Source: Microbacterium natoriense (lineage in GTDB: Bacteria; Actinomycetota; Actinomycetes; Actinomycetales; Microbacteriaceae). From it: a DNA stretch of 64,000 nucleotides. The stretch lies in contig NZ_JAUSXV010000001.1 of the NCBI RefSeq assembly GCF_030816295.1, positions 868,001-932,000 on the forward strand. The letters run 5' to 3'. Below the pieces are notes generated by a model. It did no database searches, was not told where the DNA came from, and saw only the letters and a list, made by a program, of their open reading frames with translations. A program made the position numbers and the translations under genes. Within the stretch, counting starts at the first letter, position 1. Each line of letters starts with the position of its first letter. Below, piece after piece: positions 6,950 through 16,920 of the stretch.

Positions 6950-7372
6950 TCAGTTGATGATCTCGGCGTGCTCGTCGTCGCGGATCGCGGCCAGCCGATC
7001 GCGCCACGTCTGCAGCGCCTCCGGCGTGAGGCGGGTCCAGTCGGTGACCTCCTCGACGATGCGCAGAGGGTCGGCGCTGCGATACGACCGGGTGGGATTA
7101 CCGGGGAACTTCTTGTCGGTCACGTTCGGATCGTTCTCGAACGGACCGGTCGGCTCCACGAGATACACCCGGGGTTCACCGTCGCCGGCGGCCAGTTCGG
7201 CCGCGAGCCCCGCGCCATCGCGCAGAGCCGTGAAGTAGATGTGGTTCATGACGACCTCGGGCCGGTAGTTCGACCGGAAGCCCGCTGTCAGCAGGTCGCC
7301 CGGTGCGAGTTCGGCCTTCGTGCCGTGGAAGAACGGTCCTTCGTCCAGTGCATCATCCAGTGCATCGCTCAC
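6950..7372 (-). CDS. arr: NAD+--rifampin ADP-ribosyltransferase (Arr)
   Basis: A 140-residue protein that covers the whole Arr family. The signature EPTGPFENDPNVTDKKFPGN is intact. By offset to Mycobacterium smegmatis Arr (His19, Tyr49, Asp84), the catalytic-site residues correspond to His16 (FFHGTK), Tyr46 (HIYFTA) and Asp81. Arr transfers ADP-ribose to the 23-hydroxyl of rifampin and inactivates it. The start is a GTG at 7372, 9 nt after the vanS stop, with no strong ribosome site. The position makes it the third gene of a vanR-vanS-arr transcript. Substrate range has to be inferred from the family. Confidence 0.92.
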   Translation of the reverse strand: MSDALDDALDEGPFFHGTKAELAPGDLLTAGFRSNYRPEVVMNHIYFTALRDGAGLAAELAAGDGEPRVYLVEPTGPFENDPNVTDKKFPGNPTRSYRSADPLRIVEEVTDWTRLTPEALQTWRDRLAAIRDDEHAEIIN

Positions 7373-7381
7373 CGCGACAGC

Positions 7382-8492
7382 CTAGGCCGAGGCGGCGGGC
7401 GCGTACAGACCCGGGTGCGGATGCGGCAGCCACACCGTGACGTTGAGACCGCCGCCGACCCGGGGTGTGAGCACGAGCGACCCCTCGTGCGCCTGCGCGA
7501 TGCGCTGCACGATCGCGAGGCCCAGCCCGGCGCCGGCGTGGTCGTCGTCGTGGGTGCGGGCGACACCCCGCTGGAAGGGCTCGGCGAGGGTGGCGACGAG
7601 CGCGGGGGAGAGCGTGGGGCCGGTGTTCTCGACCACGACCGCCACGGCCTGATCGAGGGAGTGGGTGCGCACCGTCACGGCGCCGCTCTCGGACACGTTG
7701 TGCACGATCGCGTTGTGCACGAGGTTGGTGATCAACTGCTGGAGCAGTGACGCGTTGCCGACCGCGTGAGCCGCGTCTCCGCCGACGTCGATCGTCACCG
7801 CCCGCTTGTCGGCGAGCGGGAGCAGGGACTCCACGGCCTCCTCCGCGAGCAGAGACAGGTCGACGCTCTCGCGCGTGAACGCCCTGCGATCGGCGCGGCT
7901 GAGCAGCAGCAGCGCCTCGGTGAGCTCGATCGCCCGGGCGTTCACCTCCTGCAGGCGGTCGATCAGCGCGTCCACGTCGCGCTCGGGATCGACGCGGGCG
8001 ACCTCGAGCACGGTCTGCGAGATGGCCAGGGGCGTGCGCAGCTCGTGCGAGGCGTTCGCCGCGAAGCGCTGCTGCTCGGCCATGTTCTGCTCGAGCTGGT
8101 CGAGCATCGAGTCGAACACGTCGGCGAGGTCGCGGAACTCGTCGCGTGGTCCCTCCAGCGCGACGCGGTGCGAGAGCGAACCCTGGGCGGCGAGCTGGGC
8201 GGCGTAGCCGATGCGGTTGAGCGGCGCCAGCATCCGCCCCGCGAGCCACCATCCGCCCGCCCAGCCGATGACGATGAGCACGATCAGCACCATGGCCGCC
8301 ACGGGTCCGAACGCCCGCAACAGGTCGGAGCGATTGGGGATGAACGTGTCGGGGAGGAGCTGAGGGATCTGGACGTCGGGCACGTAGCGCAACAGGAAGA
8401 AGCCGACCACCGCGAGAAGCAGCACTCCCGACACCACCACGATGCCCGCATAGCTCAGGGTGAGCTTCATGCGTGCGGTCATGCCGCGGCGC

Positions 8493-8500
<8 letters not shown>
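7382..8500 (-). CDS. vanS: VanS-like sensor histidine kinase
   Basis: A kinase of about 372 residues with two membrane helices (KLTLSYAGIVVVSGVLLLAV and the pair-member around AAMVLIVLIVIGWAGGWWLA), a HAMP linker, the H-box NASHELRTPLAIS, the N-box TNLVHNAIVHN and the G-box GAGLGLAIVQRI. The extracellular loop is only about 35 residues, as in VanS kinases of actinomycetes. I chose the ATG at 8500, which overlaps the vanR stop by 8 nt with GGAG 10 nt upstream; in-frame ATGs at 8506 and 8530 are possible. It should phosphorylate the VanR-like regulator. The VanS name rests on neighbourhood and architecture. Confidence 0.82.
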
Positions 8501-9164
<664 letters not shown>

Positions 9165-9252
9165 GGGTTCCGAGCATACGCACCCGGGCATATCGGGAGT
9201 GTATGAAAAAGCGCATACGCCGTCGCAACACGCTCCCTTCTTCACTGGAAGC
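9165..9252. promoter_or_regulatory. Divergent vanR/vanY control region with repeated GCATACGC
   Basis: GCATACGC occurs at 9174-9181 and again at 9213-9220, 39 bp apart in the same orientation. Between them lies GTATG (9201-9205), which pairs with the second repeat. These are the only AT-rich patches in the region. They are candidates for VanR binding sites that control both directions; I see no confident -35/-10 pair. Confidence 0.45.
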
Positions 9253-9867
9253 ATGAACAACAGCCGCGCACTCAGACAGCGACGCGTCACCGCCACGATC
9301 GGTCTCTCGCTGCTCGCCGCGATCGTGATCACTTCGATCATCCTGATCGGCCAGCAGACGTCATCGCCCGCCTCCGCGACCGTCGGAGCTCCGCTCAGCG
9401 ACGGGCAGGTCGGCGAAGACGACGGCAAGATCGACGAAGCCGACCGGATCTCGGTGTTCGCCGAGACCCCGGCGGTCTCGAACCTCGACCCCGCGCTGCT
9501 CGCCGCCGTGCGGAACGCCGCGACCGCTGCCGAGCAGGACGGCGTGCGCCTGCACGTCAACAGCGGCTGGCGGTCGGCCGAGTATCAGGAGGAGCTGCTG
9601 GCGGACGCCGTCGAACGGTACGGCTCGGCGGAGGAGGCGTCGCGCTGGGTCGCGACGCCCGAGCGCTCGGAGCACGTCTCGGGAGACGCGGTCGACCTCG
9701 GCCCCGTGGCCGGGCAGGACTGGCTCTCGCGCAACGGCGCCGAGTACGGCCTCTGCCAGATCTACGGCAACGAGCCCTGGCACTTCGAGCTGCGTCCGAG
9801 TGCACCCGCGAACGGCTGTCCGCCCATGTACGACGACCCCACTGCCGACCCGAGGACCCAGCGATGA
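9253..9867 (+). CDS. vanY: VanY-type D-alanyl-D-alanine carboxypeptidase
   Basis: A 204-residue protein. A single N-terminal membrane anchor at residues 17-32 places the catalytic domain outside. The zinc ligands of the VanY/VanX/DacB fold are visible: SEHVSGDAVDLG gives His141 and Asp148, and EPWHFEL gives His177. The family removes the terminal D-Ala from peptidoglycan pentapeptides. The ATG at 9253 follows GGAAG. Its stop overlaps the alanine racemase start by 4 nt, so the four genes 9253-13056 form one coupled operon. Confidence 0.9.
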   Translation: MNNSRALRQRRVTATIGLSLLAAIVITSIILIGQQTSSPASATVGAPLSDGQVGEDDGKIDEADRISVFAETPAVSNLDPALLAAVRNAATAAEQDGVRLHVNSGWRSAEYQEELLADAVERYGSAEEASRWVATPERSEHVSGDAVDLGPVAGQDWLSRNGAEYGLCQIYGNEPWHFELRPSAPANGCPPMYDDPTADPRTQR

Positions 9868-10979
9868 CCCTTCTGCTCGCCCCGCGCCTGTCACGCCTGC
9901 ACGCGCCCACGCTCACCACGCTCCCCTCGGCGATCGCGGCCAACGTCGAGCGCGTGCGCTCGACCACCGACGCGCGCATCATGGCCGTCGTGAAAGCCGA
10001 CGGTTACGGCCACGGGGCGGTGGCCGTCGCGACCGCGGCCGTCGCCGCAGGCGCCGAATGGCTGGGGGTGACGGATGCGGCGGACGCGGCAGAGCTGCGA
10101 GACGCGGGCCTCGACGTGCCGATCCTGGCCTGGTTGAACCCGGCCGGTGTCGACGCCGTGCAGGTCTCCCGCGATCGTGTCGACGTCGCCGTGGGTTCGG
10201 TCGAGGAGCTGCGACAGCTCGCGGCCGACGCGATGACGCCCGTCCGCGTGCACCTGCACATGGACACCGGGATGTCGCGCGGTGGGTGCCCGGTCGAAGA
10301 CTGGGCCGAGCTGCTGAGGGTGGCGCGCGCGGCTCAGGGGCGCATCGAGGTCGTCGGCGTGATGGGCCATCTGCCCCGTGCCGACGAGGCCGATCCCCGC
10401 GCGAACACGGCGGCGGTGCTGAGGATGCGGCATGCGCGCGACGCCGTGCTGCGTGCAGGCTACGGGCCGCTGCTCGTGCATCTGGGGGCGACCGCCGGCG
10501 CGCTCACCGACCCATCGACGCACTTCGACCTCGTCCGGGTGGGGGCGGGGCTCGTGGGGATCGACCCATCCGGCACGGTCTCGCTCGACGGGGCGTCGAG
10601 ACTGACGGCATCCGTCGTGCACTCGTCGCTGGTGCGGGCGGGCACCTCGGTCGGGTACGGAGAAACATACGTCACGCGGCATGAGACCAATCTCAGCGTG
10701 ATCGGCGTCGGCTACGCGGACGGGATTCCGCGGGAGCTGTCGGAGGGGGCGGGTGTCGAGATCGGGGGGTCTCGGCATCCGATCGTCGGAAGGGTGTCGA
10801 TGGATCAGATCGTCGTCGACACCGGAGACCGGGCGTTCCCGCGGGGAGCGACCGCGACCTTGTTCGGGCCGGAGGGCGGCGCCGTGCCCAGCGTGCAGGA
10901 ATGGGCACGCTGGGCGCAGACGATCCCGCACACGATCGTGACGGGCATCGGCCCGCGCGTGCAGAGGAGCAGAGCATGA
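9864..10979 (+). CDS. Alanine (or serine) racemase, VanT racemase-domain-like
   Basis: A 371-residue fold-type III PLP racemase. Lys44 in AVVKADGYGHG binds PLP, and Tyr265 in SVGYGETY is the second catalytic base. The substrate-side residues GVGYADGIPR and GRVSMDQ are in place. It makes a D-amino acid from the L form for the ligase encoded next. VanT enzymes of VanC/E/G clusters carry this domain fused to an acyltransferase-3-like membrane domain; here that partner is a separate gene two positions downstream. It starts 4 nt before the vanY stop and ends overlapping the ligase start. Alanine versus serine preference cannot be read from the sequence by eye. Confidence 0.9.
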   Translation: MTLLLAPRLSRLHAPTLTTLPSAIAANVERVRSTTDARIMAVVKADGYGHGAVAVATAAVAAGAEWLGVTDAADAAELRDAGLDVPILAWLNPAGVDAVQVSRDRVDVAVGSVEELRQLAADAMTPVRVHLHMDTGMSRGGCPVEDWAELLRVARAAQGRIEVVGVMGHLPRADEADPRANTAAVLRMRHARDAVLRAGYGPLLVHLGATAGALTDPSTHFDLVRVGAGLVGIDPSGTVSLDGASRLTASVVHSSLVRAGTSVGYGETYVTRHETNLSVIGVGYADGIPRELSEGAGVEIGGSRHPIVGRVSMDQIVVDTGDRAFPRGATATLFGPEGGAVPSVQEWARWAQTIPHTIVTGIGPRVQRSRA

Positions 10980-12004
10980 GGGTGCTGGTCATCGGCGGAG
11001 GACGGAACTCGGAGCACGAGGTCTCTCTCGCCTCGGCCGCGGCTGTCTCGGAGGCGTTGCGTGCAACCGATCACGATGTGCGGACAGTGACGATCGGGAG
11101 GGACGGGGTGTGGGATGCCGCGCCGGACGCCTCCCCGGCCGGGTCACTGGCTGCGGCGATGCCGCTGCTGGCCTGGGCCGACGTCGTGTTCCCCGCCGTG
11201 CACGGCGCACTCGGGGAGGACGGCGCGCTCGCCGCGCTGTGCGCATTGGCGGACGTACCCGTGGTGGGGTCGGGGCCTCGGGCTGGCGCGATCGGGATGG
11301 ACAAGCACGCGACGAAGCTCGTCGCGAGAGACGCGGGCATCGCGACTGCGCCGGGCTTCGTGATCTCCTCCTCGGCGATCGGCGACGTGGAGTTCGAGGC
11401 GCCGGTCGTCGTCAAGCCCGTCTCGGCGGGATCGAGCTACGGCGTGAGCCTGGTGCGCGAGCCGGGAGAACTTCTCGAGGCCCTGCGCACGGCCGCCCGA
11501 TTCGACGACCGGATCCTGATCGAGGAGGTCATGCAGGGGAGGGAGATCGACGTGGCGGTGATCCGCGAAGCGGGCGGCGTGCGCTGGGCGGCTCCGCCGC
11601 TGGAGATCCACGCGGCTGGCTTGTTCGACACGGCGATGAAGTACGACGGCAGCGCACGCTTCACCGTGCCCGCTGCGTTGACGGCGGCCGAGACCGGGAT
11701 GCTGTCGCGCGCCGCGGTGACGATGTTCGATGCCCTCGGCTGCGCCGGTGTCGCACGCATGGACTTCTTCCTCGCCGACGCGGGGCCGGTGCTGAACGAG
11801 GTCAACACGATGCCGGGACTCACCGCGGCGTCGCAGGCGCCGCGCATGTTCGCTGCGGCCGGGGTGTCGTACCCCGAGCTCATGGACAGGCTCGTGCGCG
11901 CGGCGGTCTCGACGACCGGGGAGCTCCGGTCGTCGAGCGAGCGGGTGCCGGCGAGCGAGACGAGGCGCGGTGCCCGCGCGCACGCAGCCGGTGCGCGGCG
12001 GTGA
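10976..12004 (+). CDS. D-alanine--D-alanine (or D-serine) ligase
   Basis: A 342-residue ATP-grasp ligase. GGGRNSEHEVSL carries catalytic Glu15, VVVKPVSAGSSYGVSLV is the ATP-binding lid with the conserved Ser pair, and ARMDFFL and LNEVNTMPGLT hold the metal-binding acids. The omega loop contains Lys222-Tyr223 (AMKYDG), as in D-Ala-D-Ala and D-Ala-D-Ser ligases and unlike the loop of VanA/VanB D-lactate ligases. The last 30 residues are a low-complexity Arg/Ala tail. It is coupled by 4-nt overlaps to the racemase and to the membrane protein. A cluster-borne ligase beside a VanRS pair suggests an altered or inducible terminus rather than the housekeeping Ddl. Confidence 0.88.
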   Translation: MRVLVIGGGRNSEHEVSLASAAAVSEALRATDHDVRTVTIGRDGVWDAAPDASPAGSLAAAMPLLAWADVVFPAVHGALGEDGALAALCALADVPVVGSGPRAGAIGMDKHATKLVARDAGIATAPGFVISSSAIGDVEFEAPVVVKPVSAGSSYGVSLVREPGELLEALRTAARFDDRILIEEVMQGREIDVAVIREAGGVRWAAPPLEIHAAGLFDTAMKYDGSARFTVPAALTAAETGMLSRAAVTMFDALGCAGVARMDFFLADAGPVLNEVNTMPGLTAASQAPRMFAAAGVSYPELMDRLVRAAVSTTGELRSSSERVPASETRRGARAHAAGARR

Positions 12005-13056
12005 CCACGAAGGTTCGCGAGGGCTGGCCCGACGTCGCGAAGGGTGTGTGCATCATCCTCGTGGTGCTGTGGCACGTCGTCACGAAGCAGGCGATCGACA
12101 TGCCGGGCGCCGGTGCGGTCACAGATGTCTGGTCGACGGTGAACGCGCAGCTGCTTCCGTTGCGGATGCCGTTGTTCTTCCTGATCTCGGGAATGTTCGC
12201 CGTACGCGCCGTGACCGCGATCGACGGAGCGAGCTGGCGGCGCCGATCAGCGCGTCTCGCTTCGGTGTACGTCATCTGGGTGCTCATCCAGACCTTCGTG
12301 CTCGCACTGACCCCCGACTTCGACACTGCCAGGGCGTCGGATGCCGGCGAACTGCTGGCGCAGCTGACCGTCAGCCCGACGAACCTCTGGTACCTCCTCG
12401 CCCTCGCCGCGTACCTCCTCATCGCCCGGCTGACACGGCAGGTGCCGACGCCGGTGCTGCTGCCCATCGCCTTCGTCGCGTCGGCGGCCGCGGCATCCGG
12501 AGTCCTGCCCGACCTCGGCAACCTCTGGCAGGTGGTGCAGAACCTGTTCTTCTTCCTCGCGGGGATGCGTCTTCGAGGCGCGGTCGAGGCGTTCGCGAGG
12601 AGCTCGCGGCCATCGCACCCGTTCATGCTCGGAGCGGCATATGCCGTGTGCGCCGCCGCCGTCGGCGTACTCGGCATGAGGCAATGGCCGGGCGTGTGGC
12701 CGATGCTGTCGGTGGTCGCAGTGGCCTTCGGAGTGGCGACGTGCGCCGTGCTCGATCGGCGCGCCGGAGCGATCGCCCGACCCTTGAGGTGGGTCGGACG
12801 GCGAACGCTGCCGATCTATGTGCTGCACATGATCCCGCTCGCACTGATCGACGCGGGTATCCGTGCGACGGGTATCCGCACGACGCCGGTGATCGAGGCG
12901 GTGCAGCCGCTGGTGCTGACGTCGATCGTGATCGCGATCTGCCTGGGCGTGCACGCGGTGCTGCGGCGTTGCGGCCTCGGTGTGCTGTTCGATCCTCTGC
13001 CGCTGGCCGACCGCCTGCGCGGACGACGACGAGCGGTGAGAGCGATCCAGACGTGA
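12001..13056 (+). CDS. Acyltransferase-3-family membrane protein (VanT membrane-domain-like)
   Basis: A 351-residue integral membrane protein with about ten helices. The start is a GTG that overlaps the ligase stop (12001-12004). The first helix carries the family His in GVCIILVVLWHVV, followed by PLFFLISGMFAVRA, and LPIYVLHMIPLAL matches the conserved late motif of PF01757. The N-terminal half of VanT racemases belongs to this superfamily and is thought to bring the L-amino acid to the racemase; here it is a stand-alone last gene. Acyl transfer to a wall or envelope component is the alternative. Confidence 0.82.
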   Translation: MTTKVREGWPDVAKGVCIILVVLWHVVTKQAIDMPGAGAVTDVWSTVNAQLLPLRMPLFFLISGMFAVRAVTAIDGASWRRRSARLASVYVIWVLIQTFVLALTPDFDTARASDAGELLAQLTVSPTNLWYLLALAAYLLIARLTRQVPTPVLLPIAFVASAAAASGVLPDLGNLWQVVQNLFFFLAGMRLRGAVEAFARSSRPSHPFMLGAAYAVCAAAVGVLGMRQWPGVWPMLSVVAVAFGVATCAVLDRRAGAIARPLRWVGRRTLPIYVLHMIPLALIDAGIRATGIRTTPVIEAVQPLVLTSIVIAICLGVHAVLRRCGLGVLFDPLPLADRLRGRRRAVRAIQT

Positions 13057-13235: not shown

Positions 13236-14315
13236 ATGACCTCACTTCTCTCTCGGCGCGCGTTGCGCGTCCTCTCCGCGGCCTTTGCTGCGACCATCGC
13301 CGCCACTGCGCTCGCGGGGTGCGCATCAGGCGCAGACCCGGCTACGGCCGGCTCCTCGGCGGACTCGGATGCCGGTCTCGGAGACCTGACCGTCCAGCTC
13401 AGCTGGGTGAAGAACGAGGAGTTCTCGGGTGAGTTCTTCGCGGACTCGAAGGGCTATTACACCGACGCCGGACTCGGCACGGTGACTCTGGTGCCCGGAC
13501 CTTCGACCGGCGCGGCGGAGCTCATCTCCGGCAGTGCGGATGTCGCGCTCTCGGATGCCGTCTCGATCGGTTCGGTCGTGGCATCAGAAGGCGCTCCGCT
13601 CAAGATCATCGCCACGACCTATCAGAAGAACCCGTTCACCGTGCTGTCGCTGGCGGGCGGCGCCGACATCGCCACGCCGAAGGATCTGATCGGCAAGAAG
13701 ATCGGCGTGCAGGACTCCAACAGCGCGCTGTTCAAGGCTCTGCTCGCAGCCAACGGCATCGACGAGTCCGAGCTGACCATCGTGCCGGTCCAGTACGACC
13801 CGGCGCCCCTGATCAGCGGCGAGGTCGACGGTTTCATCGCCTATCTCACGAACGAGTCGATCACGGTCGCGGCCTCCGGCACCGAGGTCACGAACCTCCC
13901 GTTCGCCGACAACGGCCTGCCGTTCGTCGCCGAGACCGTGACGGTGACAGATGACGCGATCAAGAACGACCGCGAGAAGCTCAAGGCCTTCCTGGTCGCA
14001 GAGATCAAGGGCTGGACGGACGCCGTGAACGATCCCGCTGCCGGGGCGGACCTCGCCGTGAGCGAATACGGCAAGGACCTCGACCTCAACCTCGACAACT
14101 CCATCGCCGGCGCGACCGTGCAGGCCGAGCAGCTCGTGGTCTCGGACGAGACGGCCGAGAACGGCCTGTTCACGATCTCGGACGCCCTCCAGAAGGAGAC
14201 GATCAAGAGCCTGGCCGGTGCCGGCATCACGCTGAAGGCGTCGGATCTGTTCGACATGTCGCTCCTGGATGAGGTCTACAAGGAGAACCCCGAGCTGATC
14301 GCATACGCGGGCTGA
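13236..14315 (+). CDS. NMT1/THI5-family ABC substrate-binding lipoprotein
   Basis: A 359-residue lipoprotein with a signal peptide ending in the lipobox ALAGC. The mature part starts [20 protein letters not shown], typical of the ThiY/SsuA/NrtA group, with KGYYTDAGL and the ligand-side [10 protein letters not shown]. It is the first gene of a four-gene importer (13236-16920). This group binds pyrimidine precursors such as HMP, riboflavin, sulfonates or nitrate. I looked for a TPP-type leader in the 179 nt upstream and did not see one, so thiamine is not supported. Confidence 0.85.
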
Positions 14316-14328
14316 TCGGAGCTCGACC

Positions 14329-15171
14329 ATGACGCAGCCGATCCTCACGACGGATGCCGTGCAGTCCGGTTCTCAGGGCGATGTCCTGGGAACCGGACTG
14401 CAGATCTCGGGATTGAACAAGGTGTTCGCCTCAGGGCGCAAGAGCGTCGCCGCGCTGGCCGACGCGAATCTGCACACCGAGCAGGGTTCGTTCCTGTCGC
14501 TGCTGGGACCGTCGGGATGCGGCAAGTCCACGATCCTGCGGATCCTCGCGGGCCTCGAGACCCCGACCAGCGGCACGACCCGCGTCGACGGCAAGAGCCC
14601 GAAGGAGCTCCGCGCCGAGAGCGGGCTCGGCATCGCGTTCCAGGACTCGGCGCTGCTTCCGTGGCGCAGCGTGGTCAGCAACATCCGGTTGCCGTTCGAG
14701 ATCGCGGGGCTCCCGGTCGACAAGGACTACGTCGCGGAGATGATCGCGCTCGTAGGTCTTCAGGGCTTCGAGAAGGCCAAGCCCTCGCAGCTCTCGGGCG
14801 GTATGCGACAGCGCGTCTCGATCGCCCGATCGCTGATCCTCAAGCCGGAGGTGCTGCTGTTCGACGAGCCGTTCGGCGCGCTGGACGACATGACCCGGCA
14901 GAAGCTCAATCTCGAACTGCTGCGCATCTGGACCGAGAAGCCCGCGACGACCCTGCTGGTCACGCACGGCATCTCGGAGGCGATCTTCCTCTCGGACTAC
15001 GTAGCGGTGATGAGCCCGCGACCCGGTCGCGTCAAGAAGGTGCTCAAGATCGACCTGCCGCGTCCGCGGACACCCGAGATGCTGCGGACCCCCGAGTTCC
15101 ACGCGTATGTGGACGAGGCGTCCGAACTGCTGTTCGGCGAGGGAGGAGCCGCCGCGGATGACCACCACTGA
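14329..15171 (+). CDS. ABC transporter ATPase (NMT1/SsuB/ThiZ type)
   Basis: A 280-residue nucleotide-binding subunit. [11 protein letters not shown] is Walker [16 protein letters not shown] is the signature, [13 protein letters not shown] is Walker B with the D-loop, and the switch His is in [15 protein letters not shown]. The first 25 residues precede the usual start of the fold. It lies 13 nt after the binding-protein gene and its stop overlaps the first permease start by 14 nt. Confidence 0.92.
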
Positions 15172-16039
15172 GAGGGTGCAGGCGGACGGCTCGGCCGAGT
15201 CGCAGCGCGGGGGCGCGCCTGGCGCGCTTCGACGAGGCCGGCCGGTGCGGTGGCAGAGCATCGCGCTTCCCGCCTGGCTCGCCGGACTCATCGGCGGCGT
15301 CGGAATCATCATCCTGTGGTGGGTGATCGCTGCGGTGTACGTCGCGCCGACCGGTGCGCGCCCGATCCCCACACCGTTCGAGGTCGTGGCGAGTTACGCC
15401 GAGAGCGGCTGGGAGTTCTACTGGCGCAACTTCTCGGTCACGTTGGCAGAGGCCGGGATCGGGTACCTCTGGGGCAACGGCATCGCGTTGATCCTCGCGG
15501 GCATCGTGCTCGTCGTCCCCCGCCTCGAGGGTGTCGCCATGCAGCTCGCGATCATCACCTACTGCATCCCGATCGTCGCGGTGGGGATGCTGGCCATCGT
15601 GATGATCCCGTTCCCCAAGCCTGGCGAGCCCAGCGGTACGGCCGTGCTGCTCGCCGCGCTCTCGGTGTTCTTCACCACGGTCGTGGGGGCGCTTCTGGGG
15701 TTGAAATCGGCCGATCGCACGAGCCTCGACCTGATCGCAGTGTACGGCGGGGGCCGTCTCGCGCAGCTGGTCAAAGTGCGTCTCATCGCGGCGCTGCCGG
15801 CGATTCTCGGCGCCCTGCAGATCGCCGTCCCCGCCGCCTTCCTCGGTGCCGTGCTCGGGGAGTTCTTCGGCAAGATCGAGACCGGCGTCGGCATCGCCAT
15901 GACTCTGGCCCAGCAGGGTTCGAACGCCCCCGTGGTGTGGGCTCTCGCGCTCGCCAGCGGGGCTGTCGCGCTCGTCGGCTTCGCCCTGGTCGGAGCCATT
16001 GCGCGCGCCGTCGCGCCGTGGTCGAAAGGAGCAGCATGA
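15158..16039 (+). CDS. ABC transporter permease 1
   Basis: A 293-residue inner-membrane protein of the BPD_transp_1 family with six or so helices. The coupling-helix region reads [26 protein letters not shown], split here by the family EAA-loop pattern. The ATG at 15158 is inside the ATPase 3' end and is preceded by GGAGG. The stop overlaps the next permease start (ATGA). Confidence 0.88.
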
Positions 16040-16920
16040 CCACGCTGACCGCAGCTCAGGAGCAGCAGCGGGCCTCGCCGGATCGCAGCGATTTGAGCCG
16101 AGACGTCCGCCGCGCGGCTGCGCGCGGGGTGCTCAGCGCCCTGGGCGGGAGTCTGCTGACGTTCGCGCTCACTCTCGTGACCGTCGTCGTGCTCTGGGTG
16201 GGGGTGCTGGCGATCTTCCGCATCTCGCCGCTCATCGCCAAAGGGCCTGTCGACGTGTGGAACTTCTTCGTCACCGTGCCGGCCGCGGAGGCCAATCGCG
16301 CGCTCATCGCGGGCAACCTCGCCGTGACTCTCGGTCATGCGTTCATCGGGTTCGTCGCCGGCCTGGTGGTCGCCGTCATCGGCGCAGGAGTGTTCCAGCT
16401 CAGCAAGGGGATCGAGCACGCGCTGATGCCGCTCGCGATGCTGCTGCGGTCGGTGCCGCTCATCGCGATGGCGCCGGTCATCATCATGATCTTCCAGCGC
16501 GGCTGGCTGACGATCGCGGTCATCGGAGGCATCGTCGTGCTGTTCCCGGCGCTCGTGAACATCTCCCTGGGGTTCAGGTCGGCCCCGCCGCAGATGAACG
16601 ACCTCGTCGAGGTCTACGGCGGCGGAGCCTGGTCGAAGCTCCGCAAGGTCGCGATGCCCTCCTCGCTGCCGGCGTTCTTCGCCGCCGTGCGCATCTCGGT
16701 GCCCGGCGCCATCACGGGGGCGCTGCTCGCAGAGTGGCTCGCCGTCGGCGGCGGCATCGGCGGGTCCATCGGTGGATTCGTGCCGCAGGCGCAGTTCACC
16801 GCCCTCTGGGCGTCGGTCGTCGCCGTCACCGCGGCTTCTCTCGTCCTATACAACGTCGTCCAGATCGCTGAAGACGTCGTGCTCGCGCGCATGGGCATGC
16901 ATTCGCAGAAGAGCGTGTAG
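16036..16920 (+). CDS. ABC transporter permease 2
   Basis: A 294-residue permease of the same family as its upstream neighbour. The coupling helix is DLVEVYGGGAWSKLRKVAMP. Two different permeases suggest a heterodimeric channel, which is less usual in the ThiXYZ/SsuABC group where one permease forms a homodimer. It is the last gene of the importer and converges on the deaminase gene with a 9-nt gap. Confidence 0.88.
   Translation: MTTLTAAQEQQRASPDRSDLSRDVRRAAARGVLSALGGSLLTFALTLVTVVVLWVGVLAIFRISPLIAKGPVDVWNFFVTVPAAEANRALIAGNLAVTLGHAFIGFVAGLVVAVIGAGVFQLSKGIEHALMPLAMLLRSVPLIAMAPVIIMIFQRGWLTIAVIGGIVVLFPALVNISLGFRSAPPQMNDLVEVYGGGAWSKLRKVAMPSSLPAFFAAVRISVPGAITGALLAEWLAVGGGIGGSIGGFVPQAQFTALWASVVAVTAASLVLYNVVQIAEDVVLARMGMHSQKSV

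Follow-up and report, generated by a model that had tools for sequence, protein, structure and literature searches.

A 64,000-nucleotide stretch of the Microbacterium natoriense genome (positions 868001-932000 of a 4.19 Mb genome assembled as one contig), hereafter the window, contains a row of four genes that encode a VanY-type D,D-carboxypeptidase, a racemase of the alanine racemase (Alr) family, a relative of D-Ala-D-Ala ligases (Ddl) and an acyltransferase-3 (AT3) membrane protein, next to divergent genes for a VanR-VanS two-component pair. Each neighbouring pair in the row overlaps by exactly 4 nt, and both the coordinates and the family scans agree on this point with a preliminary description of this DNA, which recognized the four overlapping genes and the divergent vanRS genes as a VanC/G-like operon. 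The features, in window coordinates, are as follows.

7382..8530, minus strand: VanS-O-like sensor kinase with HAMP, HisKA and HATPase_c domains (family scan; NF033094 VanS-O, 401 bits, cut-off 720)
8493..9164, minus strand: VanR-O-like response regulator of the OmpR type (family scan; NF033118 vanR-O, 433 bits, cut-off 505)
9189..9219, no strand assigned: candidate VanR operator, a conserved box between vanR and vanY (TATCG-N3-RYRTAT, then CATACG)
9253..9867, plus strand: VanY-type D,D-carboxypeptidase (PF02557, 56 bits)
9864..10979, plus strand: Alr-family racemase (PF01168 and PF00842)
10976..12004, plus strand: putative D-Ala-D-X ligase (PF01820 and PF07478)
12001..13056, plus strand: AT3 membrane protein of the kind denoted AT3a, an optional member of the operon (PF01757, 104 bits)

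The VanY protein contains the SEHVSGDAVD and EPWH motifs and a hydrophobic N-terminal segment, as read in the sequence. A second Alr, with Tyr at position 354, is encoded at C1:1686274, and a second Ddl, 40% identical to the operon ligase, at C1:2498263-2499048. The genome thus encodes a Ddl besides the operon ligase, and the concern that the latter might be its sole one, which the preliminary description had raised against its own proposal, can be set aside. The lack of VanX noted there also holds, as no PF01427 match was found anywhere in the genome; no VanH is encoded among the operon genes (a genome-wide search for VanH was not made). With both of these missing and a D_ala_D_lac model score of 199 bits for the ligase, below the cut-off of 550, the D-Ala-D-Lac (vanHAX) route was considered and rejected.

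Paired substitutions in the racemase and the ligase

The specificity of Alr is determined by a strictly conserved residue, Tyr354; the corresponding residue of VanT is Asn, and the Y354N replacement yields an Ala/Ser racemase (PMC3485190; PMC5025676). This position is occupied by Thr and Ala in the lysine and broad-specificity racemases, which also lack Lys129 (PMC3485190). In the window racemase, His356 (codon 10929-10931) replaces Tyr354 and His132 takes the place of the carbamylated Lys129, with the catalytic Lys44 and Tyr265 retained. The same positions were compared across 120 operon loci (L036-L047, L055-L134 and L136-L163, which include the identical rows L039/L059, L040/L067 and L043/L083 and possibly share genomes). 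The Tyr354 position is His in 115/115 of the operon racemases read and Tyr in 30/30 housekeeping Alr proteins (28 from the same genus and 2 from the order), and Lys129 is found in none of the 116 operon racemases read and in all 30 of the housekeeping ones, the catalytic Lys and Tyr being retained across the operon enzymes. That is, the Tyr354 that marks a housekeeping alanine racemase is missing from the operon racemase. Of 4547 racemase homologues, 120 were listed; His is present in 118 of these, the other 2 falling outside the reading pattern, and none of the 120 is an AT3-racemase fusion. The VanT models score far below their cut-offs on the window racemase (vanT-CELN, 117 bits against 900; vanT-G, 193 bits against 460), and the alr model outscores both. 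Elsewhere in the genome, two Alr C-terminal-domain matches lie near each other at C1:2814793-2816201, and in the one that was aligned, Glu replaces Tyr354 and the stretch with the catalytic Tyr is missing.

The ligase is altered in a comparable manner. In an alignment of the second-substrate pocket, which the preliminary description had proposed as a check, the counterpart of Gln287 (codon 11834-11836) is Arg in both VanA and VanG, the latter a D-Ser ligase, and Met in other Ddls; we take this column to correspond to Leu282 of DdlB and Arg322 of VanC2. Gln is present in 119/120 operon ligases and Met in 16/16 other Ddls, although in the named-genome set introduced below the Gln count is biased by a scan pattern that held SQ (the His count of the racemases is unaffected). 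Counted with the reversed pairs that are discussed further on, 18 other Ddl loci were read, 16 with Met and 2 with His, the latter being reversed pairs. The operon ligase thus does not have the Met or other hydrophobic residue of a housekeeping Ddl at this position, and a racemase gene is present in 0/16 of the Met-type loci (about 3.5 kb each). The preliminary description also drew on Lys222-Tyr223 of the omega loop (11639-11644) to argue against a D-Lac product. These residues are there, and are invariant across the 14 ligases of one alignment, but the argument carries little weight given that VanG also retains Lys-Tyr; by the same token, they provide no argument against D-Ser. The curated D-Ser ligase models fit the operon ligase with scores below their cut-offs (D_ala_D_ser_VanG, 209 bits against 495; D_ala_D_ser, 195 bits against 520).

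The orthologous block of VanRS, VanY, racemase and ligase is present in 9/46 genomes of the same genus, with ligase identity of 68-81%. A scan of named genomes gave at least 583 stretches coding for a relative (ordinary Ddls among them), of which the 80 best were retained; these represent Microbacterium, Actinomadura, Amycolatopsis, Blastococcus, Allonocardiopsis, Lentzea, Nocardioides, Frankia and other genera. VanR or VanS adjoins the racemase-ligase pair in 42/80 of these loci, which, together with the 9/46 genomes of the genus, indicates that the arrangement is not due to chance. In 29/80 loci, none of them of the VanRS type, a gene for a VanX-like dipeptidase lies just upstream of the racemase gene, and the metal-site motifs are present in 29/29 of these proteins; the two from L101 and L045 (another genome) score above the PF01427 cut-off and below that of the NCBIfam VanX model. 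A relative of the HisKA_3 sensor kinase of L045 is encoded next in 15/80 loci, in 14 of these 15 along with a LuxR-type regulator. An even sample of the class gave a strong match in 37/393 genomes (28 newly read loci, 2 that represent our own genome and G034, and 7 weaker matches without a locus), and His and Gln occur together in 28/28 loci read; the query of this survey was the whole protein with no motif, so that it is free of the SQ bias.

In the ligase tree, the Gln ligases, along with a single Arg exception (L093), form one clade with a Shimodaira-Hasegawa-like approximate likelihood ratio test (SH-aLRT) support of 96, and the VanRS-type ligases, together with a few truncated loci, are nested inside this clade with support of 100. 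The racemase tree mirrors the ligase tree and places the 80 operon rows in one clade (99) and the 45 VanRS-type rows in another (100); both trees are quick ones with long branches flagged, and the ligase tree is midpoint-rooted. Thus, the racemase and the ligase are linked and co-inherited across actinomycete genera, and the His/Gln pair probably goes back to one ancestral change, hence the counts given above are not those of independent events. The exceptional locus L093, from Umezawaea endophytica, encodes no racemase within 6 kb, and its ligase is devoid of Gln287, Tyr223 and Arg261; we take this to be joint decay, in an operon that, judging by its sequence, looks decaying or repurposed. 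L093 also contains VanRS and two VanY genes with upstream stretches that appear similar by eye. The reverse pairing, with Gln in the racemase and His in the ligase, was read in three loci (L048, L049 and L050), all from the same genus, and in 1/297 genomes of an even sample of the order. These three have Glu at the Lys129 position, and no van-type neighbours were noticed among their listed frames.

Regulators, the AT3 protein and neighbouring genes

The vanR-O and VanS-O models are by far the best NCBIfam matches to the two-component pair, although both scores stay below the cut-offs. Upstream of vanR, the first half of the box, TATCG-N3-RYRTAT, is present in 39/39 regions (our own and those of 38 loci) and the second half, CATACG, in 30/39, the 9 without it being Actinomadura-type loci in which vanRS is not divergent. 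The box is a probable VanR operator. With up to 3 mismatches allowed, its pattern matches our own genome at a single site, and the reversed control gives 0 matches, so that VanRS probably controls just this operon, to which VanR would bind at the box; a wider VanR regulon was considered and rejected, since the pattern gave no further site in this genome.

The AT3 protein contains the K-X10-H and RxxR motifs. Across the relatives, the first motif (R/K-X10-H) is present in our own protein, in 14/14 AT3a proteins and in 17/20 proteins of a second kind, AT3b, and a loose pattern finds RxxR in each of the 34. Both motifs have been described as essential in acyltransferase-3 proteins (PMC9558356; PMC9833829), and with them retained the protein may be a working acyltransferase. 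The AT3 gene is an optional component, present in 3/9 of the orthologous loci of the genus (4/10 with the window counted); among the 80 named loci, AT3a is encoded in 14/80 and AT3b in 20/80, and most of the VanRS-type loci have no AT3. The role of the AT3 half of VanT is unknown, with serine transport having been proposed (PMC9558356). The preliminary description regarded the racemase and the AT3 protein as a split VanT. As a statement on descent this is not supported: the AT3 protein has no match at E 1 to the VanT model, membrane half included, is optional and retains the acyltransferase motifs, and the racemase is closer to alr than to VanT. What is left is best viewed as a likeness of parts, by analogy. 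A search by sequence for relatives of the AT3 protein in the PDB gave none at E 1. In another genome of the genus (L046:3920-6229, minus strand), an AT3 protein is fused to a long C-terminal part, CapA-like by eye, and lies downstream of a racemase-ligase pair.

Among the neighbouring genes, one for a rifampin ADP-ribosyltransferase (Arr; 6950-7372), on the same strand as vanS, begins 9 nt past the vanS stop and is possibly co-transcribed with vanRS. As a member of the system, arr was rejected: elsewhere it was seen only in L036, and it was not found in the 80 named loci, not all of which are long enough to reveal it. Just downstream of the operon, at 13236-16920, an NMT1-type binding protein, an ABC ATPase and two permease-like frames make up what looks like an ordinary ABC importer, with no match to its binding protein in the 15 relative loci searched. 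An anti-phage system was likewise rejected, as PADLOC gave no match for any of the four operon proteins.

Proposed function and competing explanations

So what could this operon be for? The reading that we favour, and consider moderately likely, is an inducible remodelling of wall precursors to D-Ala-D-X, with X most likely D-Ser, that is, a system VanC/G-like in its working, not in its membership. The gene order, the protein families, the conserved box, the paired substitutions, the co-inheritance of racemase and ligase and the presence of another Ddl are observations; the substrates, the inducer, the binding of VanR, the role of AT3 and any effect on susceptibility are inferred. Under this scenario, VanS would respond to a signal at the envelope, which is probably a glycopeptide or a related ligand, and VanR would fire the single divergent promoter; the racemase would convert an L-amino acid, most likely serine, to the D form, and the ligase would couple this product to D-Ala and so give D-Ala-D-Ser, or some other D-Ala-D-X dipeptide, instead of D-Ala-D-Ala, for MurF to add to the precursor. 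The membrane-bound VanY would take the terminal D-Ala off the remaining D-Ala-D-Ala precursors, and AT3, where present, would be an accessory that either helps to provide the amino acid or adds acyl groups to the altered wall. With no VanX encoded, the pool of D-Ala-D-Ala would persist and, therefore, the effect may be partial. The preliminary description had already proposed a D-Ala-D-X route other than D-Lac, with the racemase supplying X, and the proposal gains from the matched substitutions, the other Ddl and the VanX-like dipeptidase that replaces VanY in related loci. The last of these is the strongest hint: a VanX-like protein beside the same pair in sister operons argues that D-Ala-D-Ala is not the product.

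Several facts weigh against this reading. The predicted structure of the ligase (pLDDT 88.8) matches the solved chains of Ddl, VanA and VanG alike along its full length, so that the fold does not decide on the substrate, yet the predicted fold is nearest to Ddl, and this comparison slightly lowered our confidence in the D-Ala-D-X reading. Conserved Ser150 and Tyr216 have been tied to ligases that make only D-Ala-D-Ala (PMC7691350), and their counterparts (Ser153/154 and Tyr223) seem to be retained in the operon ligase. Furthermore, the whole operon is present in L062, a record under the name Microbacterium sp. A20, and a minimum inhibitory concentration (MIC) of vancomycin of 0.5 ug/ml is reported for a strain that bears the same name; strains K22 and K2B2, alike in size and GC, have vancomycin MICs of 1 and 4 (PMC6336093, Table 3). 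The operon may respond to an inducer other than vancomycin, or it may give no protection from this antibiotic, and with an operon-bearing record and a susceptible strain sharing a name, glycopeptide resistance is unproven. Vancomycin-resistant Microbacterium have been reported (PMC10701896), with no genome linked to those reports here.

The same facts are what would be expected if the operon were a backup set for ordinary D-Ala-D-Ala, with the racemase providing D-Ala and with VanY and VanRS handling wall stress such as that caused by D-cycloserine: the ligase retains Tyr223 and Ser153/154, its predicted fold leans to Ddl, and the strain named A20 is susceptible to vancomycin. We nevertheless find this explanation improbable, in view of the replacement of Tyr354 by His in 115/115 racemases, the loss of Lys129 and the presence of Gln287 in 119/120 ligases, and because a VanX-like dipeptidase beside the same pair (29/80 loci) would be futile in such a backup. 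These substitutions are also compatible with another possibility, namely that X is neither Ala, Ser nor Lac, a terminus of which we know no example from glycopeptide resistance: the His of the racemase and the Gln of the ligase differ from the Asn of VanT and the Arg of VanG and VanA, and the lysine and broad-specificity racemases are likewise without Tyr354 and Lys129 (PMC3485190). However, a hydroxyl might be accommodated by Gln in the same way as by Arg. Serine is the known precedent for a set of racemase, ligase and VanX or VanY, which counts against a different X; all told, we regard this alternative as unlikely. It can be extended, equally tentatively, to a third wall-terminus chemistry, in which D-Ala-D-X with X neither lactate nor serine would be made by the His354 racemase and the Gln-pocket ligase across Actinomycetes, under VanRS-VanY in one branch and with a VanX-like dipeptidase (partly with a LuxR-type two-component system) in others, the product possibly being acylated by the co-recruited AT3. 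Finally, the two kinds of AT3 beside the pair, most with the acyl-CoA motifs, would be compatible with a role of the set outside peptidoglycan, in the supply of a small molecule or a surface polymer that contains D-Ala and is acylated by AT3, but VanRS-O-like regulators, VanY and VanX are wall-precursor functions and most VanRS-type loci have no AT3, which makes this scenario highly improbable.

Relationship to known systems

The D-Ala-D-X reading that we prefer has a direct predecessor. In 2021, vanRSY with a racemase and a Ddl were noted in Allonocardiopsis, Murinocardiopsis and some Geodermatophilales, D-Ala-D-Ser was proposed, and the arrangement was called rare (PMC8698665). This is the same block: L077 is the locus of Allonocardiopsis opalescens DSM 45601 and contains the same His/Gln pair. 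The Micrococcales entries of that study are vanHAX and vanZ arrangements, not the present operon, and its accessible passages contain no residue analysis, VanX sister operons or AT3. No description of the VanX-racemase-ligase-AT3 operons was found in the open-access literature searched, most subscription papers lying outside that search. Thus, as far as that literature goes, the pairing of the two residues, the extent of the distribution, the sister operons with a VanX-like protein, the recurrence of AT3, the box and an MIC that sits uneasily with resistance appear to be new. If the proposed function is correct, D-Ala-D-Ser-like remodelling would be widespread in Actinomycetes and would have been overlooked, and the two residues could be used as a search signature; the public names of such racemases, where given among those listed, are alanine racemase. 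The recurrence of AT3 beside the racemase-ligase pair also offers separate-gene systems in which the AT3 half of VanT, described as unexplained (PMC9558356), could be tested alone.

Compared with the pdx operon of Micromonosporales, the window shares VanRS with a Ddl, a dipeptidase function and an enzyme of amino acids dependent on pyridoxal phosphate, but in pdx this enzyme is a PALP-like serine-threonine dehydratase, not an Alr-fold racemase, and the peptidase is VanX-like, not VanY (PMC8698665). The VanO-type and other actinomycete vanHAX operons have the closest VanR and VanS, as judged by the vanR-O and VanS-O models, yet they differ in that the window genome has no VanX family, the operon has no VanH, and the ligase is apart from VanA in the tree. 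With the VanC/E/G/L/N systems of enterococci, the likeness extends to the two-component pair, a D,D-peptidase, an Alr-fold racemase altered at Tyr354, a ligase altered at the second-substrate position and, in some loci, AT3. The differences are that the racemase and AT3 of the window are separate proteins far below the VanT models, that the ligase is far below the D-Ser models, and that VanRS is nearest to the VanO type. Where the enterococcal systems have VanXY, or VanX and VanY, the window has VanY and no PF01427 protein, as does its branch, and 29/80 relatives have the VanX-like protein instead. One feature of the VanC/E/G/L/N systems, a racemase and a ligase both changed at the substrate-determining positions, is nevertheless found in the window, through His and Gln in place of the Asn of VanT and the Arg of VanG.

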